The notes under the pieces were generated by a model, which saw only the letters and a list, made by a program, of their open reading frames with translations, had not been told where the DNA came from and made no database searches. This document shows positions 1 to 39,200 of a stretch of 64,000 nucleotides of DNA, piece by piece. The stretch covers positions 195,514 through 259,513 of the forward strand of contig MU128973.1 in the NCBI GenBank assembly GCA_014904985.1, read 5' to 3'. The stretch is from Hydnum rufescens UP504 (lineage: Eukaryota; Basidiomycota; Agaricomycetes; Cantharellales; Hydnaceae). How positions within the stretch are numbered: position 1 is the first letter of the stretch; each line of letters opens with the position of its first letter. Made by a program: the position numbers and the translations under genes.

Positions 1-1860
1 TGAGCAACCATGGCTTGGCCTTTGGAGCTCCATGAGACCGGGCCACCTGACAGGGTGAACACATAGCCAGAGACGGATTTGCGAGTTGTCGGGTCCATAG
101 CATAGTCGGAGTCAGTGTAACCAAGGAGGTTTCCACCGTCGGATCGGAAGGTAATGCCATAGTGGATAGTGCCAGCAAGGTAGTGGAGGAGGTGCTTGAG
201 AGCGGTGACATGTTTAGTGCCCGGACAAGAGGAGAATCTAGACAGTGCAGCAACAGCATAGGCGATATCGGGGCGGGTTCCAGTCATCGTGTACATCATG
301 GATCCAATCACTTCAAGGTATGGAAAATTGCGAGCGGCATCAACCTCAGCATCAGTTGCAGGCTCCAGTATGATTTTTTCTGGAAGGGGGGTTGAAGTCG
401 GTTTGCAGTCAGCCATTCCAAATCGGGTGAGTACTGTTTTCAGATACTGTGACTGTTCAACAGTGAGGGTTGAGGTTTTGAGGTTGTAGTGAACATGCAT
501 CCCAAGGATCCAGCGTACAAGTCCGAGGTCAACCATTTCGAAGCGGGACTCCAATTTGGTAACGATATGTTGCATCAGAGTCGTATTATTGTAGCCAATA
601 AGCAGGTCATCGACATACAGGGATATGACAACATAGTCGTCATTTCGGTGTAGCAGGTAGATGCAGTGGTCGGCTTGTGTGCGGGTGAACCCCAAGGTGA
701 GAAAGAAGGTGTCAATAGTGGCATACCATTCACATCCCCCTTGCTTCAGACCATATAAAGCTTTCTTGAGCTTCCAAACCCAGGTCTCCTTTCCTTGTTC
801 CTCATAGCCCTTGGGCTGGCACATAAAGATATCTTCCTTGAGGATGCCATGAAGGAAGGCGCACTTGATGTCCATGTGACGGATTTTCAGGTGGTGCTGA
901 ACGCAAAGGGCAAGGAAGACTCGGATAGCAGCAGACTTGACAACCGGAGCAAAACTTTCAATGTAGTTGATATTTTCCCATTGTCGGTCACCACGAGCTG
1001 TCAAGTGAGCTTTGTAGCAGGTAATCTGTCCGTGTTCATCATGCTTCCGGCAGAGTACCATTTTATTCCCAATGAGGTTTGGGATGCTGATAGTGTTGGG
1101 GTTTATGAGGTCATAGACATCAGCCTTTCGGATAGAGTCGAGTTCAGCACGAATAGCAGCATCCCAGAGATGGGATTCTGGTCCAGCAAGTGCGTCATCG
1201 GTGCGGGGTAGGTCAGGAAGTTCAGTATCAATATCCAAGGTATCATCTGCCCCCTTGATGTGGGCAGTGCTTAGAAGGCTGATGAGCTCCTGGGCGAGAT
1301 TGGCCTGTAGGGAACCCTCAGGTGTGTCCTTGCGAACGGTGTGTCGTAAAATGCCATAACGACCATAGTCATCAGGCTCAAGGTGCTTCGGGGCTTTGAT
1401 GGAGCAACGATCACGTAGCCTGGGTAGGGGTGCAGCAGGAGGAGGAAGGGCATCTGGAAGGTCAGGGGGAGGATCGTGTAGGGAGGGCTCACTGGCTTGG
1501 TCAGCAGGTGGTCGGTTGGCATCCTCACTGGGTGGGCCCTCAGGGGTGGTAAATTCAACGTCAGGGTGTGGGAGAGCAGTTTCAACAAACAAGGGGGAGC
1601 GGCTAGTGTATGTGTGGTGCGTAGCTGGGTCCCAGAACCAGTATCCGCTGACACCTTCTGGGTACCCCAGGAACTTTACCTTCCGAGCTCTATCACCCAA
1701 TTTTTTTGCTCCGTCACCTTTGGGAATGTGGATGTAAGCATCACAATAGAAGACTCGAAGGTGCGAGATGTCAGGTTTGCGGTTGTAGAAGGACTCGAAG
1801 GGAGTGATTCCGCCATTTGAGGATATCATGGTGCGCTGATGACAGTAAGTGGCAGTGGCC
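1..1860 (-). pseudogene. Copia reverse transcriptase and RNase H, 3' end outside the window
   Basis: After a proline-rich linker (about 1350-1680), the minus strand encodes the copia RT signature MDIKCAFLHG (about 860-890) and then LKKALYGLKQGG (about 745-780). The catalytic YVDDLL lies at about 603-620. C-terminal to it come GSMMYTMTGTRPDIAYAV (about 250-305) and the RNase H start with SVSGYVFTLSGGPVSWSSKG (about 11-75). The frame looks open across this stretch. The proline-rich linker is normal for copia between integrase and RT. It is marked as a pseudogene because the same polyprotein is broken upstream; this part alone shows no lesion I could find. Confidence 0.9.
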
Positions 1861-3295
1861 AAGGCTTTGGCCAAAGTCCTTGAGGACAATCCATGTCCTT
1901 GAGCATGGCCCGAACCTTATTTGTGAGTGTGCGATTCATCCACTCTGCAACACCATTTTGCTCAGGAGTACCAGCAACAGTGTGCTCGACTTGGATTCCG
2001 TGTTCAGTGCAGTAAGTCTCCAGCTCAATATTGATGTATTTGCCTCCATTATCGGTGCATAGGATGCCAATGTGACATCCAATCAAGTTTAGGAAGATTT
2101 TGTCCATTTTGATGAACCAAGGTGTGAAGTCGCTTTTACGTTTTAGGGAACAAGTCCAAACCATTCCAGATTTGTCATCAACAAGTGTGGCAAAGTAAAG
2201 GTTGCCTCCAAGGGACGGGATGTCCATTTCACCGCAAATGTCTGAGTGGATGCAGCCAAGGATGTCGGGCGCATGAGTGTGACCGATGTCAAAGGGGAGG
2301 CGAGTCATTTTGGCCATAATGCAGGATTCACAGGGAGTGTTGCTGACTTTGTCAAGGGGAATTCCATCAACTCCATCGACAAGTTTGTGGTGCAGCATAT
2401 CCTGTAGGGTGCGGATACTCGGATGGCCAAGACACTTGTGAAGAAGGTCTAGGGAGGGGGTGGGGTGGGTGGTCTGCAGGGCCTGGGGTGATATGGTGGG
2501 TGGTGAGGAAGGGAGAGGCAGGGCTGGGTGAGTGGGCTGAAGGTGCAGCTGGAGTAGTGTTCCATGTTCACAGGATTCTGCGATGATTTTTCCAGATTTC
2601 ATGCGAATAAGGCATTGGTTGCCTGTGAATATGGCCTCATGCCCTCAATGCATAAGGGTGCATATTGACAGCAGGGCATTCATTAGTTCGGGGACATGCA
2701 GGACCCGGGCAAGTCACAGGGTGATGTCATGGCCACTGACAATTCCAGGCAGAGATACCGGGCCCTCCCCATAGGCAAGAATGTGTGAGCCATTGGCAAG
2801 GCGCACCTTTCGAGGGATTGGGTAAGTCTCATACGAGGTGAAGTCGGTCATGGTCGGGGCCATATGGTCAGAGCATCCAGAATCAATAACCCATGTTGAT
2901 CGCAAAGGAGGTGCAAGATTGGCTTTGGCAGTAGCCACATACATTTCCACTGGTTTGGAGGGAGGACTGGCTGTGGCAGTGGCCATCATCACATCCACTT
3001 CTCCATCAATGGCATGAACAGTGACAAGGTTTGCCTGTCCCTCCTTCCCACTCGCAGAGGTTTTCTCGGGGCATTTGGCTTTTACATGGCCAGGTTTTTT
3101 GCAGGTATGGCAAGTGGCTGTCTTTAGCCATTCCTCATACTTTGCCTTCTCCTCGGGGGTTTTTGGTGGACCACATCGGTTCCCGGTATTGACCTGCAGG
3201 GCGGCTGATGAACCTTTTGAAGATGAGTCTGCAACAGACTGCTGTATGCAGGTCTCTTCATCCATTAGTGCCCCCTTGATGTCATCCAATGTCAC
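1826..3295 (-). pseudogene. Copia gag C-terminus, protease and integrase, broken
   Basis: The first frame (2714-3295) has a CCHC zinc knuckle (CHTCKKPGHVKAKCP) and an aspartic protease active-site stretch (WVIDSGCSDHM). It ends at a TGA; a second TGA follows within 90 bp. The second frame (1826-2602) has the integrase zinc finger (H-x3-H, then CESC) followed by the catalytic core: the first Asp in HSDICGEM, the second in CTDNGGKY, and Glu in EQNGVAEWMNRT. The frame is lost near 1860, and downstream coding continues in another frame towards the reverse transcriptase. The catalytic residues are intact, so the breaks are stops and frameshifts rather than active-site loss. The stops are TGA, the codon CpG deamination makes from CGA. 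Confidence 0.88.
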
Positions 3296-3867
3296 TGATG
3301 TGACACCTGTGAGTAGTGTGGTACGGACGACATTGTACGAGGCTGGCAGCCCATGGAGGAGGGCAAGGGCCAGGAGAGTGTCAGGAATGGGGGGGCACCA
3401 ATGGGACCAGATGTGATATAGTCAGCAGCAGCAGTTTCGAGAGTGGCAGCAAAGTCAGCAATGGATGTGAAGCTGGAGAGGGAGGAGGAGAATATTTTCT
3501 GGGCAGCGTAGAACTGAGCAGAAAGGCCCTTTGGCTTGTACATGCGGCGCAATTTATTCCATGCAACAGAAGGAATTTTGTCACGAGCGATGTGGGATTT
3601 CACAGCCGGTTCACAGGTGAGGATGACATTGTACAAGACGTTGATGGTGCCCTTCTCCCAGATCTCCATCTTCGATTCATACTGTGGATCATCGATTAGA
3701 GTGTCATCGGCACCAATGGTTTTCGCAGCAGGTGGGGTGGTGTTTTTCCCTTGGATCCAGGACCATTGTCTGGCATGACGAATGATGAGACACAGATCGG
3801 CAGCCCATGCAGCATAGTTCTCATGGCCACGAAGCTTCATGACAGATAGCTTGGCAGATTCAGTCAT
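3292..3867 (-). CDS. Gag polyprotein N-terminal part of the copia element
   Basis: A 191-codon open frame starts at an ATG at 3867, 82 bp inside the LTR. It opens with an LxGxENYAxW-type motif (residues 12-21: KLRGHENYAAW) and continues with a helical region containing IRHARQWSWIQG and an FxAAQKIFSS stretch, as in copia UBN2/DUF4219 gag proteins, which form the particle shell. The frame runs into 3295-3292 where the zinc-knuckle region continues in another frame, so gag and the nucleocapsid part are no longer collinear here. I infer one frameshift rather than a programmed one, because the C-terminal tail of this frame has an unrelated, serine/proline-rich composition. Confidence 0.8.
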   Translation of the reverse strand: MTESAKLSVMKLRGHENYAAWAADLCLIIRHARQWSWIQGKNTTPPAAKTIGADDTLIDDPQYESKMEIWEKGTINVLYNVILTCEPAVKSHIARDKIPSVAWNKLRRMYKPKGLSAQFYAAQKIFSSSLSSFTSIADFAATLETAAADYITSGPIGAPPFLTLSWPLPSSMGCQPRTMSSVPHYSQVSHQ

Positions 3868-3949
3868 GGCGACTGGTCAAGTAGAGTGCAAGGTGGCGAC
3901 AAAGGTTATAGCTGGTGGTGCTTTTCAGTAGGGCAATGGGCCCATAACC

Positions 3950-4316
3950 TGTAGAAACAGAAAGCCTGCAATGCGGGAACCGTAATCAATTGGTTGAAAG
4001 GTAAGTGTATATACATGGAGTTAAAGGAGGACCGGAATGCTTGCCTGCGACGCAGGAACCATAATCGATTGGTTACCGAGTCGCAAGGTCTGCATGACAT
4101 TATATAGATGAAGAGAAACAATGCATGTACACACAAAGAGAAACAATGCGCGCTTTGGTGCGCATCTGGATGAGGTGCGTTTTGCCACGGAAGTGGTGTG
4201 CAATGAGGAAGAGGTGGCGGCGGACGTTGCGGTAGTGGCAGTGTCAGAGCGTTTTGCCGTAACATGGGCTCCATGCGGCTGCGAATATGCAGCGCACAAA
4301 TAGTAGGATTCCATCA
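3950..4316 (-). repeat. 5' LTR of the copia element with adjacent primer-binding site
   Basis: The segment starts with TG and ends with CA on both strands (plus-strand TGTAGAAAC at 3950 and CCATCA ending at 4316). It lies directly upstream, in element sense, of the gag start. Immediately inside it (3938-3949, minus-strand GGTTATGGGCCC) is a candidate primer-binding site. Two imperfect internal copies of a motif around GGAACCRTAATCRATTGGTT occur at about 3976-3996 and 4056-4076. Boundaries rest on TG/CA ends and position only, because the partner LTR lies outside the window. Confidence 0.6.
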
Positions 4317-7158
4317 TGACTCTCGGCTATGTCGATTAATTCGCGATATTGTCAACGCTGCGTCACTTTTTGTTTCCTCGCCACGTTTTCCTCTCTTTGA
4401 TATTCAAGACTGTGGGCTGAAACTTCCCGCTTGCCAAAGACGATTTGTGCGATCCGCAGGTTGTCTTCCCGACCTTCGCGGGCACTGCGAGGATAGCGCA
4501 TCATAGATAATCTACAGTGGGGTATGTAAGGGCTGTTTTGCCATTGAGTGTATGATACTGTCGCACGACATTTGTACCGACCTAGGACGTATGCATGATT
4601 TCCTTTGGGTAGTATACATGGTTCTTCTTTTCATCTTCCGATGCTAACCTCCATAGTCTCTTCTCCTTCGTCCTTCTTTTCCCCTCATGAGTTCAATTGG
4701 ACCCTGCCTTCTTGAGCATACACAAACCAACTTGATGGAAAATATCCACATGACGACTGGCTTAAGAGTCGGGGATTGGCGCTTGTCGCCGCTACCCGAT
4801 ACATTAATTATAAGCGCCCCCAAGAAATTTCACGAGGCCTATCCAAGCCAAGGAATCAAAGTCGCAACAAGGCCCTATGGTATTTAACTATGGCATATTC
4901 TTGCCAGAGGGGAAAGAGGTGAAACAATTGAGCATTTCAACATCTGGAATGTCATCTTCATCAGAGTGTCCAGACCCGATGTTCTTCCTCTTACACTATA
5001 ATCTCGATCATCTTGGGTATTTCTGGCAACGAAACAATACTTCAAACAAGTATCCCTTAGGAGGAGAGATACAAGATGTATCCCTGTACAGCATTTATCC
5101 AACTGCGAGGTGACCTTTGGTGATGAAGGACAAGGAGTGTCCGGAAAATACGACACCTAACGTCACCATCAGCAAGATCTTGGATACAGGAGGATGTCTA
5201 TTTTCTCATTACGGTTGTTGATGCGCCTTCAAGATTTCCGATATGTAGGGTCGGGACTAATTAGGGATATACGAGATCAGTGGAAGGACAAACACAAACT
5301 GCTGAAAGAGGCTTAGTCACTGGGGTCGCTGAGGCCACAGCATTCAGTCTCACTTCAAAAAGTCACCATCCATTTCATGAGCTACCCTGGGAGACTCTAA
5401 AAATCGGCACGAAGGATTCCGTAATCAGCCCATGGCCTATACAACCTGATAAATAGAGAGATACGAGGTGGATTGTAGCGTGTAAAGGGTGGACTCTAAT
5501 CCCGTCGACATATGCCTGGAACGCGCTGATGTTTGTGAGCAAAGCCAGTGACCAATTTGATCCATTCCTTAATGTTAGAGTGGCAAGGGAAAAATCGACT
5601 GGTCAAAGGTGGGATTAGATGATATAAAATATTAGTACTAGAGGATTATAATTGGCATAGACCTATCCATAGCACCTACACCCTGGTGATATTGATTAAT
5701 AATCTTGCCATCATGCAGACGACAACAGCGAGCATACACACATACAATATCATCACACAGGGGGCTGCCGGGACTAAGGGGCGGGACGACCGGTGCAGTC
5801 CCAGGCGGTTTCAAATTGGGGTCACGAGGGAGCGCTGCTAGATAGTGTTCCCCAATGTGCTAGAGTATAGCATGAGGACGAAAATGCAAGTGGTCGCAGA
5901 CTTTGACAGCATCGACAAAACGTTTCTGTCTTGTGTGCCCAATAGATCACCATTCCTTGTTGACGGTTTCAAGCACGAACCGGAGGCTAGAGTTTGAACA
6001 AGGGAAGCAACAAAAGCAAAGATGAAGAGGCCAGAGATAGAGAAACGATGGAGAGGAATTTTCTTTGCCATAAAAGTTGCGGGCGAGAAGGCGGTCTTAG
6101 GCCTCCGCTGCTACATATAAGCCGCACTCGGTGCATCCTCTGCGATCTGGACCTAAGTCTTATGCTCCAGAGAGATACTCTGCATTTGTTAAGTCGCCTG
6201 TGGAACATGCGAATGCACTGCGAAAAATTATCAGGTTTTACGGGAAAGTTTCTGGCATTCGTCGGGCTCAGTGGAACATGGGTATAAGACGATTCCCGAG
6301 AGACGATCAAACCACAGCATCACCATATCGTAGGCAGCGACTTAGCGCGCCACCTTGGGCGGCAAGTCGCACCGTTGTTGTCTGGCTCGACACCAAGCTT
6401 ATAATCGATCGAAGCGTGTTGATCGACACTGTCATATACATTCGATGGTGACGTTCAGAGCTATTCGGCAGGAGAAACTAGCTTGTGCGCGAGCTTCCTG
6501 AACACACTACTCACGATTTGGGTGATTTTTTTTCCCTAGAAGAAGCTCAATAGATCAGGTGCACGTACTCTTCAATCCAGGTACCCAGCCAATCGTCGAG
6601 GTCGCTTTTTGAGCACCACTGTGATAGATTTGTGATGATAGGAAAGGTCATCTCCAATATCGTGGTGTCAATGTACGGTGCAGCATTTCCGTGAATATTC
6701 TGGATTGGGACTCAAAGGTACACCGTAAGCAAACCGTCTTAGATACCATAAGTCAAGCCGGCGGCGCCGATGCGGAATCATAGAAGGACTCTCACAACAA
6801 CAGTTTCGGCCCTTTCAGTTGGTATAAATGCTTCGTGAGGGATCAGGTCATAGAAATCCCGGTCTCTGTGTTCAGTTTATTAACAGCCTGGGTTACGAAT
6901 ATTTTAAGACTCCACCAGAAACCAGTTCACCTGGAGAACATTTTGTGCCTGACGCTGTGGCACTTCGGCAACTTGCGGCGGCCTCTCGCGTCACCACCAA
7001 CCTGAATTGCTGTTAAGCGTCAATCCACCCCATGCTGCTGTGTGGATCCAGCTCATCTTCTCCAGCGAGTTTTGGCAGAGGAAAAACAGTGCGTGTTCTC
7101 AGTGCTCATCTCACTGTAGCCCGAGGCCTGACAGCGCTAACGGTACTCTAACTCACCA
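4317..7158. other. No recognisable gene; unique-looking sequence
   Basis: About 2.8 kb with normal CpG content and only short open frames (longest about 107 codons, at 5987-6310 on the minus strand). I see no family motif, splice-consistent chain of exons, hairpin array or terminal repeat. Short TATA-like stretches (for example near 5625 and 6115) are not convincing alone. It may be an intergenic region or the remnant of a gene too decayed to recognise. Confidence 0.5.
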
Positions 7159-14747: not shown

Positions 14748-15084
14748 TTTTATTACACAACTATCTACTCAATATGTAGTGTGTAAAATAGTTCCCCCTT
14801 TAATTGATGTCATTGTAGGCTATTGCATGGGGTCCCCATGGGGGAATTTAAGACCTCCCACCCTGTGGGGTTGAAAACCCACCCCTGTGACTCACAGGGG
14901 CAGAAGCCATGGGATACATGATGGGGTTGAAAAACCCAAGGGAAAGCTGTGGGATTCCCACAGGACAATGTGCTCTATATGGCCCATACAGTACAGTAAG
15001 GTTATTTATTATTTATTTATTATATTATATATAATATCAGTGCATCAGATTTTGTGTGGGGGCCTTGACCATGTTCTCATCAGG
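14748..15084. other. Short GC-rich hairpins leading into the array; no gene
   Basis: Contains small inverted repeats (CCCCATGGGG near 14834, CCCCTGTGACTCACAGGGG near 14883, GTGGGATTCCCAC near 14949) and then an AT-rich run. It looks like the distal end of the hairpin-rich element family rather than a gene. Confidence 0.45.
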
Positions 15085-16314
15085 CAAGTCCCATCTATTT
15101 CCTTCAGGTGGGGTATTGCACAGTGGAGGTGCCTAGAACAATAACACCTTAGTAAAGAAAAAAAGACAGAAGGCAATGCCAAAAGAGCAGCTGGTACTGC
15201 TCTTTTGGCATTGTCATACATCCTGTAATCAAAGAAACTCACCAAATATTCCCACACACCTACCAAAGTGGGTGTGTGGTGCCATGCTTGATTTGTCATT
15301 GTATGGGTTGCAGATAGGGTCAGGGTCTTGCTGTGTGCTCCCATATTTTGTGGTGGGCTGTGAGTTTTTGTCAATCATCATGTTAGGGTGCCAGGCACTT
15401 GGGGCTTGGATGGCTGCACATTGAGTTTTGTAGTGGCTGTGTCTTCATTGGGTGGGTTTTTGGATAGGGAAGGCACCTAGAACAATGAATATTAACATAT
15501 GAGTAAAAAAAAAAGAAAACAGAGAGGTGCCAAAAGAGCAGCTTCTGCTGCTCTTTTGGCACCAGTGGAATTAGGCATACCTGATATTACCACACACCTG
15601 CCCCAGTGGGTGTGGTACAATATTTAGTCAATTAGTATTTTGGGGGCTGGGTACTTGGGCAGCTGTGCATCAAATTTTGTGGTGGGGGCTTGTCCATGTC
15701 CTCATCTGGCAGGTCTTTGCATAGGGAAGGGGCCCAAAGAACAAATAAGAATACATTAGTAAAAAAAAGAAAACAGAGGGGTGCCAAAAGAGCAGCAGAT
15801 GCTGCTCTTTTGGCACCAATGGGATTAGACATACCTGATACCACACCCACCAAAGCAGGTGTGTGGTGCTGTATTTGTTGAGTCCTTGTACACATTGCAG
15901 AAAATCGAGGGGGTCAAGGGATGTGGGTGGCTGTGTGGTTGTCAGGGCAACACTGCCATTGAAGCCACAAACAGAAAGAGGAAAGAGATTAATTAACCAC
16001 ACACTAGCACAGTGGGAATCCTGAGTATACACCACACAACAAGGGACACACAAGTCTTGCACCTATTGCAGTGGGAATCCTGAGAGATCAAAACTGGTGA
16101 TCCCCCAACTGTGATGGGCTATAAGTACTACTTCCTGCACACAGCCACCACAGCCACCACAGCCCATCAAGATGACATATCTCCATCACAGACACAGCCC
16201 ATCAGTCAGCCTCCACAGCCATCATCACTAAGCCTCACTAAGCTGACACAGCTGTGTTATGAATCCTGTGCACACCTCCACATGGCTATGCCCCAACTTC
16301 CATATGCATCCCCC

Positions 16315-16692
16315 TTAGCATATATACTTCCAAGGTAGTGCACACCTGGGTACTCCAAAGGTGTCCAAAGTGTCAAAGGACTGTAATGATGCTGATGGGG
16401 TAGGGATTGGGACAGGTGGTGTGGATTCAGGGACTGGGGGCAGAGGAGGAGGAGGGGGAGTCTGGATTGGCAACTCCATGGACTCATGTGGGGAGTGAGG
16501 GAATGACAGGTGCTGACAAGGGCGCCAATGCTGCCACTGGTTGACTACCCAGCCCATAGCCCACTGGTTGAGGCCCAATAGAATGAGGGCACTAATAATA
16601 AGAGAAATGCCAATAATGGCAAGGATGACAATAACCCCCTTACTGAATGGAGGGAGAGAGAAGACAAGAGCATTTGAAGAAGTAGGCACCAT
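16315..16692 (-). CDS. Small single-span membrane protein with proline-rich tail (hypothetical)
   Basis: A 125-codon open frame on the strand that runs outward in block I. Residues about 18-41 form one hydrophobic helix (GVIVILAIIGISLIISALIL), preceded by a short polar N-terminus and followed by a tail with PPPPPLPPVPESTPPVPIP. No family recognised. It could be a protein-coding exon carried by the array element or a chance frame in a low-complexity region. The hydrophobic helix and proline-rich tail make it better than a random frame, but there is no homologue in the window to confirm it. Confidence 0.35.
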   Translation of the reverse strand: MVPTSSNALVFSLPPFSKGVIVILAIIGISLIISALILLGLNQWAMGWVVNQWQHWRPCQHLSFPHSPHESMELPIQTPPPPPLPPVPESTPPVPIPTPSASLQSFDTLDTFGVPRCALPWKYIC

Positions 16693-17045
16693 ATGATAGA
16701 GTCAATGAAGAATGATACTCTGATGGGTAAGTCCTCAGGCAGAAGCAAATGTCAATTTGATCCTGACAGTGGTCCCATGTTTGGCCCTGGACCTGATCTG
16801 TGCATTAGTTGTGTCAGATATCACACAGTGAATGTACCTAGAATAATAATATGTCAGTGGAGAAACAAAAACAAAGGAAATGCCAAAAGAGCAGCCAGGG
16901 CTGCTCTTTTGGCATTGTGGTACACCCCATAATAAGAAAAAAACACACCTGTCAGGGCCATGCTGTGACAAGGGCACCAAACAAATATAAACACAAATAA
17001 TTCTGGCTAAGTCTGGTGTACGCAACCTGGTCAGCCACAAATGTA

Positions 17046-17097
17046 CATCTAGTTAGATACAATGAGCCTTGCATTTAAATAGTCTAACTAGATGTTT
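17046..17097. repeat. Terminal hairpin (ACATCTAGTTAGA ... TCTAACTAGATGT)
   Basis: A 13-bp perfect inverted repeat separated by about 25 bp including TGCATTTAAATAG. The same arrangement recurs inverted at about 42084-42117 (AAACATCTAGTTAGA, then ATAAATGCAATG, then CATATCTAA). In both places it adjoins a GGGGCCCC-rich stretch on the inner side, so it probably marks a terminus shared by elements of this family. Confidence 0.6.
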
Positions 17098-18217
17098 TTA
17101 GGCTGGGGCCCCTGGGGCCAGCTAACATGATTTTCATGATTCAGGCAGGGGCCCCAGGGGCCCCTGCTTCTCACCTTAGACTGGGACTTAGAGATTCTCA
17201 GACAACAGTGGGCTATACAGGCTTATTGGGGGTAGTTCCATTTATAATTATTTATTTATTATCACTATATTATACATGGGTGGGGTTTCATTCAGTGGCC
17301 CCATTATTTTATTTATTGATTTATTTAAAAATTCAATTAATATACCACACACCTGCCCAAGCAGGTGTGTGGTACTGTCCATACAAATCAAAAAGAAAAA
17401 AAAAGTACTACTTAGTAGCACCACACACCTGCTTGGGCAGGTGTGTGGTACCATCCCTCAAAATTTAAAACAAAAAAAAAGGATTGAGTAGCACCACACA
17501 CCTGCTAGGGTGGGTGTGTGGTATGGGGGGCTGGGCTTGGCAATTCACCATTGGGTGGGTTGTTGGGATGAGTTGTGGGTCATGGGTCACAGGTTGTCAT
17601 TTCAGGGGCTTCAATTTGGATCCTAAAATAATAGCATACATTAGTAAAAAAAAGATTGAAGTGACACAAGGAGCAGCTTGGGCTGCTCCTTTTGCATTGC
17701 TGTACATATAGAAATCTGAAAAAAAACCTACACACCCACCAAAGTGGGTGTGTGGTACTGATTTTGTGCCCTGGTTGCATGCTTTGTACTTGGTTTTGCA
17801 TACAGGGGGGTGTCCATTGGGGTGGGTCATGGTTTCAGGAGCCTTGATTTGATTCCTAGAATGATAGTGTATGTTAGTAGAAAATCTTCCAAGTGACACA
17901 AAAGGAGCAGCTTGTGCTGCTCCTTTTGCATTGCTGTACAGTATTTTACCACTCAATGACCACTTCTTAAATTCAGCTACTTCCACTGTTCAGGTTACAA
18001 CTCCTACTAGCTTGAACAGATATCTTTAAATGTACATTAATAGTGAACATAAGAGTCATGTGCATGTCCCCCAGAGATTCTGGCTCTGCTAGAAGACCTG
18101 TGATGTTTGTTTTTATTGATGGTTTTGATGATGAATGAGCTGGCCCCCTTTGGATCCAACTTGATTCAATGCTTCTTCATAGGTGTGGATTCTAAGGAAG
18201 TAGAATAGTGGAAGGCA

Positions 18218-18463
18218 GTGAGAAATGTGGCCCAGGACACAGTAAAGCTGGATAATGAGACTGCCCTTGCCCAGTGGGACTTGGGCCAAGCATTGGCTCA
18301 TGTAAACACTACTGTTATCCCTCTCAAGCATATTTTTGCCACTAGGAATGTGATTTGGGAGATGAAAGAGGGAGAAGATGAGGGGGAGGATGTCAGCAAT
18401 GATTTGGAGCCATCTGGGCCCCAGTCAGATAATGAGGGAGGTATTGGAGATGATGATACTTGA
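18218..18463 (+). CDS. Short acidic open frame (hypothetical)
   Basis: An 81-codon frame ending in a strongly acidic tail (EGEDEGEDVSNDLEPSG...). It has no GC-rich or hairpin character, unlike its surroundings, and lies in a gap between array units (18000-18700). No motif recognised and no clear upstream exon. It may be the last exon of a decayed gene. Low confidence that it is real. Confidence 0.2.
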   Translation: MRNVAQDTVKLDNETALAQWDLGQALAHVNTTVIPLKHIFATRNVIWEMKEGEDEGEDVSNDLEPSGPQSDNEGGIGDDDT

Positions 18464-20169
18464 AGTGGTCATTGAGTGGTGGGCTACTTTTGTGAATACA
18501 AACAGCCTCATTTACAGATTACTTTCTTGAAACCTTAGTTCTTCTCCTTTCACTTTCTAAGTCTGCACACTTATTCTTCATACATTACTCTACATATGTC
18601 CATATTACTCTTAGTTCTTTGGGTGTCATGGTGACATGCAGTGACTGTGAGAAAATATTCTCAAACCATGTGGTCATTGAGTGGTAAAATACTGTATGCA
18701 TAGAAATTTAAAAAAAAACTTTGTAGTACCACACCCACTTTGCACACCCACCAAAGTGGGTGTGTGGTACTCATTTGCACCATGGTCATGCATTTGGTTT
18801 TGCATACAGGGGCTGGTCATCATTTGGGTGGTGGTTCATTTGGCAGGTTTCTGTTCTCATGTGTTTTTTTGGTGGGCATCACAGGTCTTGATTGGAGGTT
18901 GGTTGGTTGGGTTGTAGGATCAGAGAAAACCTAGGAATAAATAATGGGTTAGTAAAAGAGAAGAAACAAAAAAACAAAAGCCATGCAAAAGGAGCAGTGT
19001 ATGCTGCTCCTTTTGTGTGATCATACTTACCCTGAGTTACCACACCCACTTTGGCAGGTGTGGTTTGTCTGGGGTCCTGTGGCATTGTATCATCTGTTCC
19101 CATTCCCAGGCTTTGTTTGGCTGGTTGCATTGTCATTTCCAAGTGGGGGGGTTCATTTGGCCAGCTCAGGCAAAAACCTAGAATAATATGATAAATGATG
19201 TGTCAGTTAAAAATTAAAATGAACAATGAATGCAAAAAAAACGGCCCTTGCTGCTCTTTTTGTGTTGTTGGGGGGTGTACTACATCACTTACCTTTTGTA
19301 GAACCACACCCACTATTGTGGGTGTGGTTCATGTGGTTTGGTGTCCCTTATTTGACACCCCGCCATTCACAGGCTTTGCTTTGCAAGCAGGTGATCACTC
19401 AGGGGAGGGGGAGGTCACTTCATGGGCCTTCATTTGTGGTGGTGATAGCCTAGAAGACTGCATTATTAGTCAAAAAATTAAAACCAGCACAAAAAGAGCA
19501 GGTGCTGCTCTTTTTGTGCCATTGCAGGTACCCAATGTTACTCACCTTGTATAGAACCACACACCTGCCATAGTGGGTGTGTGGTTCTACAGGTTTGGGC
19601 TTGGCTTGTGTCTTCATTTGGCCCATCCTCGTTTGTTGGTTGTGTTTTGGGGGCAGCCATTGTTTCAGGGGTGATTTGTTTCACTGATCTTCATTTGTGG
19701 AAGCCTAGAATAAAAGATGTATTAGTTAAATAATAATAACTGGTGCAAAAAGAGCAGCACTTGCTGTGCTTTTTGTGCCATTGGGGGTGCACAGGGTAAC
19801 TTACATTATATAGAACCACACACCTGCTGCAGTGGGTGTGTGGTTCCTGGGGCCTCCCATTGAGCAGTCTGTTGCTGGTTCTGGTTTGGCTCTTGCCATT
19901 CAGGTTCTCATCATGTGGCAACCAAATAATAAAAGCTACATTAGAATAAGACTTCAAAACAGTGCAAAAAGAGTAGCTTTCACTACTCTTTTTGTGCCCT
20001 TGTATCTACTGAAACAAAAACTCACCTTAGGACCACCCACCCACAGCAGTGGGTGTGTGGTCATGTCTGTGCCTTTCTGGGCTGTTTGTTGGGTGTGGCT
20101 GCATAGTTGTGCAATTCAATGCTGGCAATTGCCAGTCATTAAAAAGTGCCCAAGTGTAGTGCTATGAGC

Positions 20170-20860
20170 AGAATACATATTAATAACAAGTATATAGACA
20201 TAGAATCAATACTATATAATACATATTTGTCCAAACAACCAAAGAAGACAATGATAATGAGTCAGAGCTCAAATAAGGCACAATATGCCTAATTGCAGAG
20301 TGGATTGAGCCACTTCTATGGGTCATAATTGACCCAAATATAGATATAATGATGGTATATGTGAATCCCTACATGGGTGACCAGGTATATCAGATGATTC
20401 TGGTGTTTTTCAATTTTTCACACCTTCAATTCCCTAAATAGGGAATTGAAGGCATGAAACATTGAAAAATGGAGGGAGCACCTGAAATAATTAATCACCC
20501 ATGTAGGGTACATATATCCCACCAATATATTTAAATTTGAGCCAATTCTGAACCATAGAAATTGCCCAATCCACTTTGCAATGTTCATGGCTTAGTGAAC
20601 TGTGACTCATTGTCATGGTCTCTTTATTTCCTTTCAACAAATATTAATTATATGGTATTTATTTTACATTTAGTCACTTGCTACTAATGCATACTGTAGT
20701 CATGGCACTGGTGTTGGTGGGATAAATCCCTACACCATAGAATCCTCATCTGAGGCCATTTTCCTTACAAATGAAACAATTACATGTCATGGTGCTCATT
20801 TAAATTTATCATCATTCATTTATTCAAGAAATCAATTGGATTCCCACCCCTTTCCAACTC
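20170..20860. repeat. Old, eroded palindrome centre (about 20440)
   Basis: The perfect core CAATTCCCTAAATAGGGAATTG lies at about 20429-20450, flanked by TTGAAAAA-type inverted segments and more distant inverted matches (GAGTCAGAGCTC... left, ...GTGACTCATTG right). Both sides resemble the sharper centre at about 23395 (ATATTTGTCCA, GTCAGAGC, CAGAGTGGATTG). I infer an older foldback centre of the same family. Confidence 0.65.
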
Positions 20861-21059
20861 ATAATATTGCCTCATTCCTTGACCATGTCCACCAGTCAAT
20901 TTATTGACTATCCATCAGACTTCAACAGTCCTCATCAAAAAAAGGGCAGTTTATGCCCTACTTCAACTCCATTTTCTTTGGACAAGGCAATTCAACTTGC
21001 CATTCTTCCTCAAGACTGTATGGCTTGTCTGTTCTTTCAAGCCATCCGACTGCCTTAAG

Positions 21060-21500
21060 GGCAACAAATTGTGATTATGTAACAATGCGGACCAGGTCTA
21101 GTTCTGATTCTGGACTCATGGATCCATCACATGATCCAGATAGGGGCTGCACTACTCTGAAGGAGTATTTTTCTAATTTCTCTGTCATTTTTGATTGGAT
21201 CAACTCGAAACGACTGCGCCCAGAAATATATGAATTGTACCTATTGAATGGTACCAAACATGAAATGAACGAATCAAAAATTTGGTCCCTGTAACAATAT
21301 CTTGCCATGATTCATACTCTGAAGGTGTATTTCTTGATTTTCGAAGCCAATTATTATCAGATTCATTCGCGAGTACCACACCCTGAAAGCTGTTGAAAAT
21401 GCGCATCAAAAGGTACCAAGGGAAAAATGAGCGGACACGAATTACATTTTTCACAAGACAACTCCCTCCCCATGACTCCCCCTTTGCTCCACCATTCAAA
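21060..21500 (-). repeat. Diverged copy of the 145-bp cassette
   Basis: Contains the recognisable core elements of the cassette seen at 38.3-39.3 kb: TTCTCTGTCATTTTTGATTG, ACGACTGCGCCCAGAAA, AATGGTACCAAACATGAAAT, and a second partial copy with CTGAAAGCTGTTGAAAATGC. Unlike its neighbourhood it retains CpG sites, which suggests later insertion. Confidence 0.6.
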
Positions 21501-22150
21501 ATAGCGAATTACTTCCGGCCCTCTTATGTCTGATGGAGAAGACCCTCAGGGCAACCTATAACACTTTTCCTTAAGGGAACTTGTCCAGGTTTGAAGGAGG
21601 AATAGCATGTAATGTGTTAATCTCCCCTTTTATCTTGAAATTGGAATATCTCCATCAGTTTTGAATATTTTAACTTTATTTCTTTTTCTCTGTGTGTCCC
21701 TTACATCCGACTTTTTCACTTTCTATTGAGTCAAAGTCTGGATTGTATATTAGGTGCAGCTAGCACACAAATTCATTAGTTCTCCCCCTCCCTCCAGTTT
21801 GAAGCTTCTTGAACAGCTGCTGGTCCCTGGGTGATTTCTCACTACAAAAAGTAAATTCTAACTACACTTTGACTAAGGTCTCAAGAAGGGATTCTTAGGG
21901 TGTGGTAATTTGACTGAAACACACATTCTCACTTAATTGCTTGGGCTTTGTTGGCTCACTGCAATTTCCCCTGTTCAAAAGACCTTCCCCCACTTGGACC
22001 TGAACATCCAGATTAGTTCTGCAATTCCCCCTTTTGTCCCCAGCTCAACATCATGGACAGTAGTTGGATTGGTTGATAACCATCCTGCTTACACTGGCTT
22101 GTTGGTGGCCATTTGGGTGGGCATGGCTTAGTGGTTCACCATTGTGTGGG
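21501..22150. other. Spacer without recognisable gene
   Basis: AT-rich sequence with only short frames; no hairpin unit until about 22250. Confidence 0.45.
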
Positions 22151-23057
22151 TCATTTGGGGGTTGCAGCTGTCTGTTGTCATCATTTCAAGAGCTTCAAAT
22201 TCAACCCTAGAATTGAATGATAATGAACATTAGTAAAAAAAATTCAAAGTGATGCTGAAGGGGCAGCTTGCACTGCTCCTTTGGCATCACTGTAGATGTA
22301 GAAAGTTTTAAGAAAGAACCCTGTAGTACCACACACCTGCATTGGTGGGTGTGTGGTACTCATTGTTGCCCAGGGTTGTGTACCTTTGACTGCTGGTTTT
22401 CTGTACAGTTCTCAGGGGGGTTGGGTTGGTTTTGGGCATGTACTCATTTGGGGGGAAGGAAGATCTAGAATACAAAAATTTAGATCAGTAAAGTTAACAC
22501 AACACAAAAAGAGCTGCCTTTGCAGCTCTTTTTGTGCCATTGGGGGTGCATTACATTACATACCTTGTATAGAACCACACACCCACAGTAGTGGGTGTGT
22601 GGTTTGTCTCTTCATGTGGCACATCATCATTTGTGGATCCTGTTTGCAGGTGTGTTATTGTTCTGGGGGGTTGCTTCATGGGTCTTCATTTGTGGCAATA
22701 CCTATAATAAAATAATATTAGTTAAAAAATGTAAAGTGACACAAAAAGAGCAGCCTTCACTGCTCTTTTTGTGCAGCTGCATCTATTGGGGGGGAGGAGA
22801 CTCACCTTACAGTACCACCCCTGCTGCAGTGGGTGTGGTTCCTGAGCCCACTCATTGGGCAGCCTGTTGTTTGTTTTGGTTTTGACCTGGAATAATAAAG
22901 GCTACATTAGTATAAGATTCATAGCAGTGCAAAAAGAGTAGCTTGTGCTACTCTTTTGCACTATTGTATCTACTGAGACAAAACTTGCCTTATGACCACA
23001 CACCTGCTGATGCAGGTGTGTGGTTGTGTGGTTGTGGTCATGCAGTCATGGTCATGT

Positions 23058-23131
23058 ACTGTTGCTGCTGCTGTTGCTGCTGTTGCTGTTGCTGCTGCTG
23101 CTGCTGCTGCTGCTGTTGCTGTTGCTGTTGT
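23058..23131. repeat. CTG/TTG triplet microsatellite
   Basis: About 24 uninterrupted CTG/TTG triplets in the left palindrome arm. The corresponding CAG/CAA tract in the right arm (about 23653-23676) has about 8. Such repeats form hairpins themselves. Translation would give poly-Q, poly-A or poly-C by frame; none belongs to a credible gene. Confidence 0.9.
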
Positions 23132-23751
23132 GTTGGGGTCATGTGGTCACATTTCTGTTGCTGGGTGTGGCTGCATAGTTGTAAATTCAATGCCAGCAAT
23201 TGCCGATACTCAAGAAGCACCCAAATGCTGGCACTGCAAGCACAGCACACAATAGTACCAAGCATGTATATTTAAAATAAATACTATATAATGAATATTT
23301 GTCCAGGAAAACCTGAAGAAGGTGATGATAATTAGTCAGAGCCCAATAAGGCATGAGATGGAAAATTTCAGAGTGGATTGGGCCAATTTGGATGTGTAGA
23401 AGTGGCCCAATCCACTCTGAAATTTGCCATCTCATGCCTTATTGGGCTCTGACTAATTATCATCACCTTCTTCAGGTTTTCCTGGACAAATATTCATTAT
23501 ATAGTATTTATTTTAAATATACATGCTTGGTACTATTGTGTGCTGTGCTTGCAGCACCAGTGCTTGGGTGCTTCTTGAGTATCAGCAATTGCCAGCATTA
23601 AATTTGCAACTACACAGCCACACCCAGCAACAGAAATGCAACCACATGACCATGACACAACAGCAACAGCAGCAGCAATGGTGCATGACCATGACTGCAT
23701 GACCACAACCACATGACCACACACCTGCTGATGCAGGTGTGTGGTCATAAG

Positions 23752-24731
23752 GTAAGTTTTGTCTCAGTAGATACAATAGTGCAAAAGAGTAGTGCAAGCT
23801 ACTCTTTTTGTGCTGCTATGAATTTTATACTAATGTAGCCTTTATTATTCCAGGTCAAAACCAAAACAAACAACAGGCCACCCAATGAGTGGGCTCAGGA
23901 ACCACACCTGCTGTGGCAGGTGTGGTACTGTAAGGTGAGTCTCCTCCCCCCCAATAGATGCAGCCACACAAAAAGAGCAGCTTTTGCTGCTCTTTGTGCA
24001 TCACTTTACATTTTTTAACTAATATTATTTTATTATAGGTATTGCCACAAATGAAGACCCACAAAGCAACCCCCCAGAATGATAACATGCCTGCAAATGG
24101 GATCTGTGAATGATGATGTGCCACATGAAGAGATGAACCACACACTCACAGTAGCAGGTGTGTGGTTCTATACTTGATACGTACCCCTGATGATGCAAAA
24201 AGAGCAGCTTTCACTGCTCTTTTTGCATCACTTTTAAGTATTTTTAACTAATGATTTTTTATTCTAGATATCATCACAAAGGAAGTGCCACAAAACAACC
24301 CCTTGACAGAACAAAAACACCCCTGCAAACAATGATGCAGCATGAAGAGAACCACCCACCCACAGTAGCAGGTGTGTGGTTCTATGCCAGTATGTAATGT
24401 TCCCCCAACGATGCAAAAAGAGTGGTGAAAGCTGCTCTTTTTGCATCACTTTTAATTTTTTAACTAATGATTTTTTATTCTAGGTACAGTATTGTCACAA
24501 ATGAAGACCAAAGACCCATGAAGCAAGCCCCCCCCACAATGATGACATGCCTGCAAAGGGGACCCCCAAACAATGACATGCCATGTCAAGAGACGAACCA
24601 CACACCCACCAAAGTGGGTGTGTGGTAATTTTAAGGTGAGCATATAACCATGCAAAAGGAGCAGCATACACTTCTCCTTTTGTGTGGCTTTTCTTTTTTC
24701 CTTTTTACTGATGTATTATATGTTATTTTAG
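23752..24731 (+). other. Series of predicted spliceosomal introns, each containing a hairpin
   Basis: Right arm of the palindrome. Intron-like intervals: 23752-23853 (GTAAGT, TATACTAATG, CCAG), 23935-24038 (GTGAGT, AACTAATA, TATAG), about 24175-24267 (donor mutated, AACTAATG, TCTAG), 24390-24483 (GTATGT, AACTAATG, TCTAG) and 24636-24731 (GTGAGC, TACTGATG, TTTAG). Lengths are 94-104 nt. Each holds one AAAGAGCAGC-type hairpin between donor and branch motif. The left arm has the mirror intron at 22702-22805 (104 nt). Exon-like intervals (e.g. 23854-23934, 81 nt) end a few nt after the CCACACACC hairpin. Splicing is predicted, not shown. Confidence 0.65.
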
Positions 24732-25105
24732 GTTGTCTGAACCCATGACCCCACCAAGCAAACACATGAGAACAGCAATGGACCTGCCAAATGAACCCTG
24801 TGAGAGTTCAAACCCCCAACATGATGACCAAGCCCCATACCAAGTATGAACTGCATGACTGTGGTACAAACCAAGGACCACACTTTGGTGGGTGTGGTCC
24901 TACAAGGTTTTTATTTTTTTTATTTGATTTCTATCTGTACAATGATGCAAAAAGGAGCAGTGCAAGCTGCTCCCTTTGCATCACTTTGAATTTTTCTACT
25001 AATCAAGAGTCCAACTGAAGCCACACCAAAAGAAAACCTGATGAATGCACCACCAAACCCTGCCGAATGAAAAACCAATGCAAACCAGACACCCACCCAC
25101 CTTGG

Positions 25106-27870
25106 TCAGTCATCTAAGCCTACCAAGTTAGGTACCACTTCTGGGGCAGATAATGGTACCTAAGTAGGTCCCATCACTATTTTGGCTGAAATGGCTGAAA
25201 ATTGGCTGAAACTGGGACTTAGAGAATCTCAGACTTGGAGCAGGTCATACAGGCATACCAGGGATAGTTCCATTTATAATTATTTATATTATACATATAC
25301 CCCCAGTCAGCAGGGTTTCCTTCAGTGGTCAGTCCTGTTATTGACTTGTTTATTTATTGGTATATTTATTTAAAAAATTCAATTAATATACTACACCTGC
25401 TTGGGTGGGTATGGTACCATCCCTCAAAATTAAAAAACAAAAATAAGTAGCACCACACCACCCTAGTGGGTGTGGTACTGTCCATACAAATCAAAAGAAA
25501 AAAAAGCACTACTTAGTAGCACCACACACCTGCTTGGGTGGGTGTGTGGTACTGTCCCTCAAAATTTAAAAAAGAAAAAAACTAAGTAGCACCACACCCA
25601 CTTGGGTGGGTGTGGTACAGGGGGCTGGGCTTGATGATTCATCATTGGGTGGGTTGTTTGGATGAGTCATGGGTTGTCATTTTGGGGGCTTCAATTTGGA
25701 TCCTAAAATAATAGCATACATTAGTAAAAAAAAAAATTCAAAGTGATGCAAAGGAGCAGCCTGGGCTGCTCCTCTTGCATCACTGTATATATATATAAAT
25801 TTTTTTTTAAATACCTTGTAGTACCACACACCTGCTTCAGTGGGTGTGTGGTACTCATCTTGTACCATGGTTGCTGTGTAGTTTGGGCTTGGTTTTCCAT
25901 TTCATGGGTCAGCTCAGATCCTAGAATAATAAAAATGATTTGAAGTGAGCAAAAGGAGCACCACAAGCAGCTCCTTTTATGTCACCATACATGTAGAAAG
26001 TTTTAAAAAATACCTATAGTACCACACCCACTTTGGTGGGTGTGTGGTACTTGTTTTGGCCACAGTTGTGCACCCCCCACCATCAGTTTTTCATACAGGG
26101 CTCAGGGGGGCTGGGGGGTTCTTGGGCATGTACTTGTTCAGGGGGAGCAAGATCTAGAATAAAAAAATTTAGATTAGTAAGAAGTTAAAGTGACACAAAA
26201 AGAGCAGCTGTCACTGCTCTTTTGGTGCCACTGTATATATGGTGAATGGGACTCACCTTAGATGACCACACACCCACTGCCACAGGTGTGTGGTCTGGCC
26301 CATTTGCCCTCAGTTTGCTGGTCAGGTGTGGTGAGTTGCATCATGGTTGCAGTTTGCAGGTATTTTTTGGTGGGGTCATGGGTCCTTTTTGGCAGGGTTG
26401 TGGGTCTTGATTGGAGTGTTTTGGGGGGGGGGGGTTGTGGGTTTAGATGAGAACCTGGCACCGGATAATACATAAATAATATGTTAGTAAAAAAGAAAAA
26501 AAGAAAAAGCTATGCCAAAGGAGCAGCATATGCTGCTCCTTCAGTGCCACTATATGTTATGAGAATACTTACCTTAAAATTACCAACACCCACCAAAGTG
26601 GGTGTGTGGTTCCATCTGGGGTTTATGGGTCTTGTGTTGTGTGTTCCCATTTGCAGGATTTGTCTGGTGGGTGTTCCTTGGCCAGTCATCATTTGGGGGT
26701 TTTGTTCAGTACTTGTTGTTTTGGTGGGTTGCATTTGTGGCTTTCCTTTGGTGGGGGCATTGTTATTTCCATGGGGGGGAGTTCATCCAGGGATCTTCAT
26801 TTTGCTGTTTGGGGTTCAGGTGATACTGTAACCTAAAATAATAAATCACATGTTAGTTAAAAAGTAAAATGAGTGTGAAAGAGCAGCAGATGCTGCTCTT
26901 TTCATGCCATTGTGGGTATACAATATTACTTATCTTATAGAACCACACACCCACCATAGTGGATGTGTGGTTCATGGGGGTTCTGGCATCATTCACAGGT
27001 TTCATTTTGCTGGTGGGTTATCATTTCAGGGGGGGGGGGGGTTGTTTCATGGCTCTTCATCTGCAGTGATAACCTAGAATGGATGTATTAGTTCAAAAAT
27101 TAAAAGCAGTGCAAGAAGAGCAGCAAATGCTGCTCTTCTTGCACTGTAGGGGATGTATAAGTTTACTTATCCTATATAGAACCACACACCTGCTGTGGCA
27201 GGTGTGTGGTTCACATCATTGCCACCTCTTGCCCCTTCGTTTCACATGGTTTTGTTGGGGTGTGGTTTCATCTGGTGTGGTTTCATTGGGCATGGCTTCG
27301 TTTGCTGTGGTTCAGTTGCTGTGGTGGTGTGTGAGCCCTAGCCTGTTGGGCCCCATCATTGGGCACCTGGGACCAGGCCAAAACCTAGAATCATCAAAGT
27401 AGTTACTAAAGAAATTTAAACCAATGCAAAAAGAGCAGCTTTCACTGCCGTTTTTGTGCTGTAGGGTATAGAACTTACATAGAACCAGACACCCGCTGTG
27501 GCAGGTGTCTGGTTTGGGTCAGTTCCTTGGTGGGGTGTTCATCAGGTTTTCACTTAGCACAGTTTCAGTTGGGGCTCATATGGATGTTGGTTGGTTGGGG
27601 CTTGTAGGGTATTGGTGCAGCTTGAGACCTAGAATATTAAAATATTAGTTAGAAATTCAAAGCAGCGCAAAAGGAGCAGCTATTGCTGCTCCTTTTGCAC
27701 AGCTGTATCTATTGGGGGGGGGAACTCATGTTAAACAGTGCCACACACCCACCACAGCAGGTGTGTGGTTCCTGGGGCTACCCATAGGGTGGTCTGTCAT
27801 AAACTTACCTTATGACCACACACCCACAGCAGCAGGTGTGTGGTCATGTGGTCGTGGTCACCTCGGTCAG
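25106..27870 (-). repeat. Twin-hairpin exon/intron-like array, block III
   Basis: Begins with TTGGTCAGTCATCTAAGCC (about 25102), a terminus-like sequence that recurs inverted at about 37376-37394. The next 400 bp (25210-25620) parallel 17170-17530 of block I. Intronic hairpins lie at about 25744-25782, 25947-25985, 26191-26229, 26511-26551, 26873-26910, 27108-27145, 27424-27463 and 27665-27703, with exon-side hairpins such as 25823-25852, 26027-26052, 26268-26294, 26942-26972, 27182-27213 and 27812-27846. The unit at 27108 has AAGAAGAGC pairing with GCTCTTCTT, a paired variant. Orientation is minus, as in block I. No coding frame spans units. Confidence 0.8.
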
Positions 27871-28150
27871 CCACTTGGACTGATCTCAAAAGACATGTCG
27901 AACCGCATCAAATTAATTGCCTATGAGGCATCAAAATCCTTTGATCTCAAATAATTTCAATGCCATGACCTCAGGTGACAGACATGGTCTTTTGATCTCA
28001 AATAATATCAACATGGGGACTTAGACTACATAGATCAATGTATCAATGAGCTTCCAAGTTAAATTAATCAGTGTACATCTATTATCTATTCAAGAGACGA
28101 GAAACTACAAGATTGACAAGGACATGAATCCAACAGGATGACAAAAGAGC
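27871..28150. other. Array edge; CpG reappears; no gene
   Basis: About 280 bp between the last hairpin and the stop codon of the next minus-strand gene. CG dinucleotides, scarce since about 10.3 kb, return here. Nothing else recognisable. Confidence 0.45.
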
Positions 28151-38239: not shown

Positions 38240-39200
38240 CTGTGGAAGATAAAAACATCCAGTATCAGAAAATGAAAAATTACACTACTTCCAGCCATTG
38301 GATGATCACATGACTGATTATGAAATTAATTATAGTTACACACAGAAACCGAATTCATTCTATAACTCTGTCAGTTTTGATCGGAGAGGTACGCCCATAT
38401 AATGCTTAGAAAGCTACAATTCACACCTTTCTAATGGTACCAAACATAAGTCAAACAGACCAAAACTGCACTCTCCAGGCCAATTTTACTATCAAAATCT
38501 GGGATTTTCAGTAAAAAATGAATATCTCCATCAGTTCGCATTCAGTCCTCTCGGAACAACTGCGCCTGGAAAGATATAAAAGATACACATCCAACGGTAC
38601 TGAGCGCATGAAGAACAGATTAAAACTGAACTCTATAGAACAATATTACTATTAGAATCAATACCCATCAGTAAAAAATGAGTTTCTCTGTCAGTTTGCA
38701 TCCGATCTTCTTGGTGTGGAAGATAAAAACATCCAGTATCAGAAAATGCGAAATTACACAACTTCCAGCCATTGGACGATCACATGACCAATTATGAGAT
38801 TAATTACGGCTATGCACAGAAACCAAATTCGTTTTATAACTCCGTCAGTTTTGATCGGAAAGGTACGCCCATATAACACTTAGAAAGCTACGATTCACAC
38901 CTTTCAAATGGTACCAAACACAAGTTGAACGGATCAAAACTGCACTCTCCAGGCCAATTTTATTATTAAAATCCAGGATTTCCAGTAAAAAACGAATACC
39001 TCCATCAGTTTGCATTCAATCCTCTCGGAACAACTGCGTCTAGAAAGATATGAAAAACCCTCATCCAACGGTACTAAGCACGCGAAGAACAGATCAAAAT
39101 TGAACTCTACAGAACGATATTACTATCAGAATCAACACCCATCAGTAAAAACGAATTTCTCTGTCAGTTTACACCGGATCTGCTCGGAACCACCGCTCCC
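38236..39200. repeat. Tandem duplication with 481-bp period made of 145-bp-type cassettes
   Basis: GGAAGATAAAAACATCCAGT at about 38237 recurs at about 38718, with about 90% identity through both copies by eye. Inside each copy are two to three cassettes with CTCCATCAGTTTGCATTC, CTCGGAACAACTGCG and AACGGTACTRAGC (plus strand), repeated at about 145-150 bp. The same cassette is found once more at 39160-39240, 40395-40445 and 21060-21500. Confidence 0.8.

Follow-up and report, generated by a model that had tools for sequence, protein, structure and literature searches.

Non-autonomous DNA transposons are usually viewed as little beyond a pair of ends for a borrowed transposase. Introners comprise many similar spliceosomal introns and have been linked to DNA transposons in other organisms, and multi-exon non-coding RNA genes such as small nucleolar RNA (snoRNA) host genes combine non-coding exons with structured RNA in their introns. 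We describe here an array of twin-hairpin exon–intron units in a 64,000-nucleotide stretch of DNA from Hydnum rufescens UP504 (GCA_014904985.1, contig MU128973.1, positions 195,514 to 259,513; hereafter the window, numbered from its first base), which shares features with these systems and departs from them in others. By sequence comparison, the array consists of decayed parts of several dispersed terminal-inverted-repeat transposon copies mixed with other repeats and is not one locus. The nearest described mobile elements are those of the KDZ (Kyakuja-Dileera-Zisupton) superfamily: in the portion of the published description drawn on here, Zisupton has 8-bp target duplications and terminal repeats, and Kyakuja has 7-bp duplications, CA..TG ends and no terminal repeats (Kojima, PMC12730594). 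The sequence-similar [D1,2] stwintrons of the Hypoxylaceae, as far as the accounts used here extend, are likewise repeated fungal introns, some of them internally symmetrical, but they are nested and ascomycete, whereas the present introns are simple and lie in non-coding transposon arrays of a basidiomycete. A literature search by title and the beginning of the abstract, mostly among open papers, returned no equivalent architecture. We give about an even chance to the reading that places the array inside a non-autonomous transposon which is moved by a KDZ transposase and carries two divergent, spliced, non-coding transcription units.

Read on its sense strand, the unit runs from an exon through hairpin A, about 6–10 nt, AAG/GTRAGT (the slash marks the exon–intron boundary), about 10–40 nt, hairpin B, a T-rich stretch, ACTAAY and TTCTAG into the next exon. 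An automatic scan of window positions 15000–27900 found 29 type A hairpins (ACCACACACC type) and 26 type B hairpins (AAAGAGCAGC type; one, at 17826, looks false), against means of 0.05 (maximum 1) and 2.25 (maximum 5) in 20 block shuffles of the same stretch. The remainder of the window holds no type A and 17 type B hairpins, so the B filter is loose; inspection of the hairpin listing by eye gave 29 of type B. A first-pass annotation, made from the letters alone, had proposed about 29 units, which agrees with this count by eye. Most of the window's units are minus-strand; a group at 23.7–25.0 kb is plus-strand.

The arrangement recurs elsewhere in the genome (63.2 Mb, 539 contigs). Together with 26 further loci selected from this genome by similarity, the window makes up 27 sources, which contain 276 ordered A-then-B pairs with the spacing of hairpins and signals kept. 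Between A and B, GTRAGT is present in 165 of the 276 (mean 5.5 and maximum 13 in letter shuffles), and WCTAAY comes after the pair in 222 (mean 47, maximum 65), placing the recurring hairpins and fungal splice signals that the first-pass annotation had pointed out far above chance. Removal of 39 pairs without branch point and acceptor, before donors were counted, left 237 units, and 166 of these carry donor (GTRNGN), branch point and acceptor, their use in vivo being predicted; in this they resemble introners. Under a loose donor criterion, no hairpin among 381 of type B shows the complete signal set on both strands. Introns called in the 166 units measure 87–124 nt (median 103), although the calling script may pick an AG 8 nt ahead of the likelier TTCTAG. 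With hairpin A excluded, exons consist of 35% A, 34% C, 21% G and 10% T (91 exons), and introns are 36% T. A non-redundant set of 45 units was obtained by keeping 225 of the 237 (even loops, length limits) and then those below 78% similarity. In this set the 3' part of the intron is conserved (mean pairwise score 17.7 versus −2.8 when shuffled), whereas the 60 nt of exon upstream of hairpin A are nearly unrelated (−0.6 versus −2.7).

The units belong to a dispersed element. A two-unit query returned at least 169 matching pieces, the window's own counted, with 40 of 1431 candidates scored. Strict patterns spanning B to CTAAC and A to donor have 2402 and 2716 genome matches respectively, and their reversed controls none, which suggests a genome total of about 4200–4900 units, assuming genome-wide the pattern recall of the 27 sources (117 and 153 matches per 237 units). 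A stem B pattern has no match in viral contigs. Copy comparison placed the ends of the element at CAACTCAGTCAGCCA and, on the other side read inward, CAGCCTGGTCAGCCA; the end motif CAGSCTGGTCAGYCA has 826 genome matches and its control none. Five copies (L012, L014, L017, L032 and L034) have both ends and are 5248–6171 bp long. L012, L034 and L032 carry identical 8-bp target duplications at their flanks, and in L014 the flanks agree at seven of eight positions; the five copies come from nine end pairs, four of which (two in the window, one in L021 and a shorter one in L032), with 2–3 of 8 flank matches, were set aside as chance. All five complete copies contain a central palindrome (630–1112 nt, 75–96%) from which the units point outward, 33 of 33 on the left being on the minus strand and 17 of 17 on the right on the plus strand, with 2–8 detected units per arm. 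In the outer 700 nt of the five copies AATAAA occurs 37 times in sense and 9 times in antisense, and TATAWA is found within every one of the five palindromes.

The first-pass annotation had also raised an element that multiplies by copying an exon–intron pair. Multiplication itself is borne out and units do duplicate in tandem, a 634-nt stretch of L017 matching itself shifted at 79%, but it is chiefly the whole transposon that multiplies. The CpG observed/expected ratio is 0.02–0.06 in the window's arrays and 0.58 in the window outside about 15–28 kb; it is 0.79–0.99 in L012, L014, L017 and L034 and 0.51 in L032. Inside L032 (1261–1893) lies a stretch encoding a Tc3-type transposase helix-turn-helix (HTH) domain (PF01498, E 1.8e-15), probably a nested insertion. 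Several right-arm units of L009, L010, L011, L012 and L017 have AAG/ATAAGT or AAG/ATGAGT at the donor position and, being common to several copies, were carried by a lineage that moved.

Within the window the copies and example features are placed as follows.

17023..20711, minus strand: copy I, with left terminal repeat, left arm of minus-strand units and the greater part of the centre; other copies in the genome hold collinear pieces at 74–94%; left end CAACCTGGTCAGCC.
20159..20709, no strand: central palindrome of copy I, a putative divergent promoter region (inverted repeats I3, I6 and I10); the palindrome is likewise central in the five complete copies.
22204..25003, no strand: copy II, from repeats and units, with minus-strand units on the left (22204–23030), palindrome, and plus-strand units on the right (23712–25003); outer ends not resolved.
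23111..23677, no strand: central palindrome of copy II (inverted repeat I2), 278-nt arms, 93%, 11 nt between.
25098..27858, minus strand: copy III, an arm of minus-strand units reaching the start of another terminal-repeat-like sequence, from matches to L023, L024 and L026; ends approximate.
15085..15880, minus strand: fragment with three units read as minus strand, from hairpins and sequence.
18931..19030, minus strand: example of a called intron, CAGG/GTAAGT ... TTACTAACCCATTATTTATTCCTAG.
22465..22563, minus strand: example of a called intron, CAAG/GTATGT ... TATTCTAG.
26154..26256, minus strand: example of a called intron, TAAG/GTGAGT ... ACTAATCTAAATTTTTTTATTCTAG.
23752..23853, plus strand: example of a called intron, TAAG/GTAAGT ... 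TTCCAG.
23935..24038, plus strand: example of a called intron, TAAG/GTGAGT ... TTATAG.
24636..24731, plus strand: example of a called intron, TAAG/GTGAGC ... TTTTAG.
19550..19591, minus strand: example of an exonic hairpin A directly ahead of the donor, from the hairpin scan.
19485..19521, minus strand: example of an intronic hairpin B in the donor-to-branch-point interval, from the hairpin scan.

The structured sequence on both sides of the donor that the first-pass annotation described is present, but the single transcript it envisaged over 15–28 kb is not upheld, since parts of several copies lie there. The right half of copy I is missing past 20711, after which other genomic copies differ in their continuation; its expected place is occupied by a separate dispersed repeat (20712–22094), about 90% identical in L018 and L022. 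Copy I also contains an insertion of about 760 bp (17937–18696) with inverted ends TACAGTATTTTACCACTCAATGACCAC, and several other copies join the flanks without it; we take it to resemble a miniature element of Tc1/mariner type. Between array fragments, positions 16019–16768 hold a repeat 88% identical to L016.

A Zisupton-like KDZ source of the transposase is likely, though not proven, from the ends and from their genomic neighbourhood. The 8-bp duplications and terminal repeats are as in Zisupton and the CA..TG ends as in Kyakuja, which differs in its 7-bp duplications and lack of terminal repeats; two divergent non-coding exon–intron arrays do not feature in the part of the KDZ description used here (PMC12730594). 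KDZ domains are plentiful in the genome, with at least 154 matches from 150 of 584 candidates scored. Proximity was assessed among the places listed for contigs C1–C17 (the listing of motif places covered the first contigs, and one on C18 was omitted). There, five of 16 KDZ domains have the end motif 1.8–3.0 kb downstream and facing the domain, and by eye three of these five facing ends share a longer subterminal sequence with the element, including the GGGGCCCC block. Ten of the 15 longest open stretches in the complete copies were scanned and none encodes a KDZ domain, and no KDZ place listed in the genome scan falls inside these copies. Membership of the hAT superfamily (90 matches in the genome) would fit the 8-bp duplication but found no support, as none of 16 hAT dimerisation domains on C1–C17 has a facing motif within 5 kb downstream. 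Around KDZ domains at C5:442634/447009, C12:166917/171153 and C17:21488/25826, pairs of end motifs stand about 4.2–4.4 kb apart in the same orientation, which is odd for inverted terminal repeats.

We infer the transcription and splicing of the element, like its link to KDZ. A KDZ transposase encoded elsewhere in the genome would move the element, and a promoter in the central palindrome would fire in both directions. The transcript of each arm would consist of short non-coding exons and introns of about 103 nt, ending at AATAAA signals ahead of the terminal repeats, with hairpin A closing each exon before the donor and hairpin B sitting between donor and branch point. The intron arrays would raise transcript accumulation, and transcription from the centre to the terminal repeats would keep both ends open to the transposase. 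As their most likely role, the arrays would keep the element transcribed because intron-rich RNA accumulates best in basidiomycetes. In Cryptococcus, according to the part of the report used here, intron removal greatly lowers mRNA accumulation in most tested genes, and intron number and position act cumulatively (PMC3744415).

Traces of joined exons were sought with a query containing two predicted junctions (45/46 and 203/204). Among its 49 long genome matches, 44 begin at or before base 57, and 43 of these begin at bases 35–57, at or near the first junction; the other five, which begin at 111–116, are uninformative. One match, C121:57499–57696, spans the first junction (bases 5–205, 198 versus 201 bases, 73%), as judged from match coordinates, and the same place was matched in another query (79% over 99 bases). 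Reverse transcription of spliced RNA would explain such an intron-less join, and precise deletion is also possible. No match crosses the second junction, beyond which the query extended 25 bases, and none of 121 matches crosses the next junction in a query with 80 bases on each side.

Several observations weigh against the KDZ-moved, spliced element. With respect to the transposase, 11 of the 16 KDZ domains lack a motif that faces them within 5 kb; in two of the five cases with a facing end the similarity is confined to the 15-bp motif, and three of the five domains also have an upstream motif copy facing away. With respect to the element, the flanking 8 bp of L017 differ, leaving it without a target duplication, and the five complete copies are not independent because L012, L014 and L017 are close relatives; in these same three, TATAWA lies on a single palindrome arm only. 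With respect to splicing, a GTRNGN donor is missing from 71 of the 237 units, also in young copies, which argues against a strict need for splicing, and in young L017 three of four right-arm units have AAG/ATGAGT, AAG/ATAAGT and AAG/ATAAGC in place of a GT donor. Open stretches of 239–240 residues cross exons and introns in L014 and L012. Finally, a role for the hairpins as insulators keeping donor and branch point single-stranded was not supported: when 43 units were folded with and without intact stems there was no gain, the unpaired fraction being 0.375 versus 0.382 at the donor (P 0.92) and 0.561 versus 0.569 at the branch point (P 0.82).

Alternatively, the RNA itself may be the product, a rival that we hold to be possible but rather doubtful. 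Serial splicing would yield a long RNA displaying spaced A hairpins on T-poor linkers, together with lariats carrying hairpin B, and these would work in trans, perhaps as decoys or scaffolds that engage either the transposase or a silencing protein of the host. Conservation of hairpins and introns beside nearly unrelated exon linkers speaks for such a product, as does the exon composition (10% T, 35% A), and so do compensatory stem changes. In the 45-unit set, which also underlies the loop and wobble counts below unless stated, 92.2% of stem cells are paired, compared with 30.5–51.1% when the partner is slid by 1–3 columns. Double-changed cells number 106, against 41 in shuffles (none of 500 reaches 106) and 15–35 in slid structures, and a double change occurs in 20 of 31 pairs (shuffle mean 10.6). 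Deriving the structure from the very sequences under test favours this result somewhat. True paired changes are found in stem B. Covariation at stem A pairs 2–3 was rejected, being mostly CpG decay: because the arrays are CpG-depleted, the alternation of ACCTGC/GCAGGT with ACCCAC/GTGGGT looks like mostly the decay of a CpG-containing ancestral ACCCGC/GCGGGT and not compensation.

The one-stranded, outward signals argue for RNA, and the finer tests of RNA against DNA carry less weight. Among non-CpG wobbles of the sense strand, 31 are G-U and 7 A-C, which favours an RNA product, yet the G-U excess is chiefly in the outer B pairs (18 to 3, compared with 4 to 2 in inner B and 9 to 2 in A; in a larger redundant set, 12 to 9 in inner B and 49 to 14 in A). 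Loops are sense-biased too: 10 of 45 B loops are GNRA, against 2 in antisense (mean 4.3 when each loop is shuffled internally, P 0.0025), and 5 A loops are strict UNCG, against 1 (shuffle mean 0.5). A strand-specific UNCG in hairpin A, which had looked convincing in 231 units, was nonetheless dropped as a candidate, since UNCG-like loops become equal on the two strands (13 and 13 of 45) once CpG-decay forms are allowed. No Rfam family matches the window at the gathering threshold, which gives no sign of a known structured RNA family; in this, and in being part of a high-copy mobile element, the array differs from snoRNA host genes.

More broadly, we suggest tentatively that such elements form a class of DNA transposon with RNA-only cargo, in which a replicating module gives two divergent, serially spliced, non-coding transcripts that act in trans or keep the element open. 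The persistence of thousands of modules despite drifting exon sequence points to a benefit for the element, either from splicing itself or from the hairpin RNA. If so, selection would act on the splicing of this mobile element and not on any protein. The arrays would also offer a natural, highly replicated test of the effects of introns and donor-flanking structure on expression and silencing in mushrooms, and their modules are a possible source of new introns.

It is unlikely that the hairpins are DNA-level palindromes, serving as transposase binding sites or sites of cruciform-driven duplication, with the splice-like motifs incidental. Such a function would be in keeping with the repeated subterminal binding sites common among DNA transposons, with the many near-perfect stems, and with the concerted changes in the two arms of inner stem B, where intermediates are few. 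However, donor, branch point and acceptor hold their order and spacing on one strand and in one orientation per arm, and the intron-less join at C121 also speaks against it.

We consider it improbable that the array grew by introner-like invasion, in which single units of intron and hairpin A were inserted independently and repeatedly. Conservation within the unit is highest in the intron, as this would predict, and repeated fungal introns with internal symmetry are described in the literature consulted in part here, but 94 of the first 100 listed genome matches have another strict match within 6 kb. Of the other six, five lie near an A-plus-donor match by eye, leaving one isolated place. In contrast to introners, the introns here are the cargo of a larger transposon, are accompanied by an exonic hairpin and stand in arrays at 99 of 100 listed places. 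The isolated place, C2:7611, could be a single intron in a gene, as judged from match lists.

Descent of the arms, by decay, from intron-rich protein-coding genes is very improbable: open stretches reach 240 residues and some exon frames lack stops because exons are T-poor, but none of 52 exon indels in six related copies compared pairwise with L017 is divisible by three (shared indels were counted repeatedly, and 45 are of one base, some possibly sequence errors), exon lengths differ in phase with inconsistent frames, three of seven exons of the CpG-rich L017 are stopped in all frames, and the longest stretches, in L014 and L012, traverse introns, are partly out of frame with one another and have no Pfam match. 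None of 13 intron indels in the same comparison is divisible by three. In a Pfam scan, ten long open stretches from the complete copies yielded nothing except the HTH in L032, and open frames of at least 110 residues in L031 and L033 were absent or, by eye, mostly low-complexity. The arrays therefore look non-coding, as the first-pass annotation had proposed for the exons.

Elsewhere in the window, positions 38241–39181 contain a 474-bp tandem unit present twice, with related sequence in L016, L020, L021, L024 and L026. A protein encoded in the window matches four others at E ≤ 0.001, three of them from Hydnum rufescens UP504 (the best 90% identical over 87%) and the fourth an unnamed JGI protein; Hydnum belongs to the Cantharellales among the agaricomycetes. 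Remains of a copia-type retrotransposon with integrase core, gag-pre-integrase and Pol beta-barrel domains lie at 1826–3876, and a DDE_3 endonuclease domain at 51125–51697 is a remnant of another DNA transposon.

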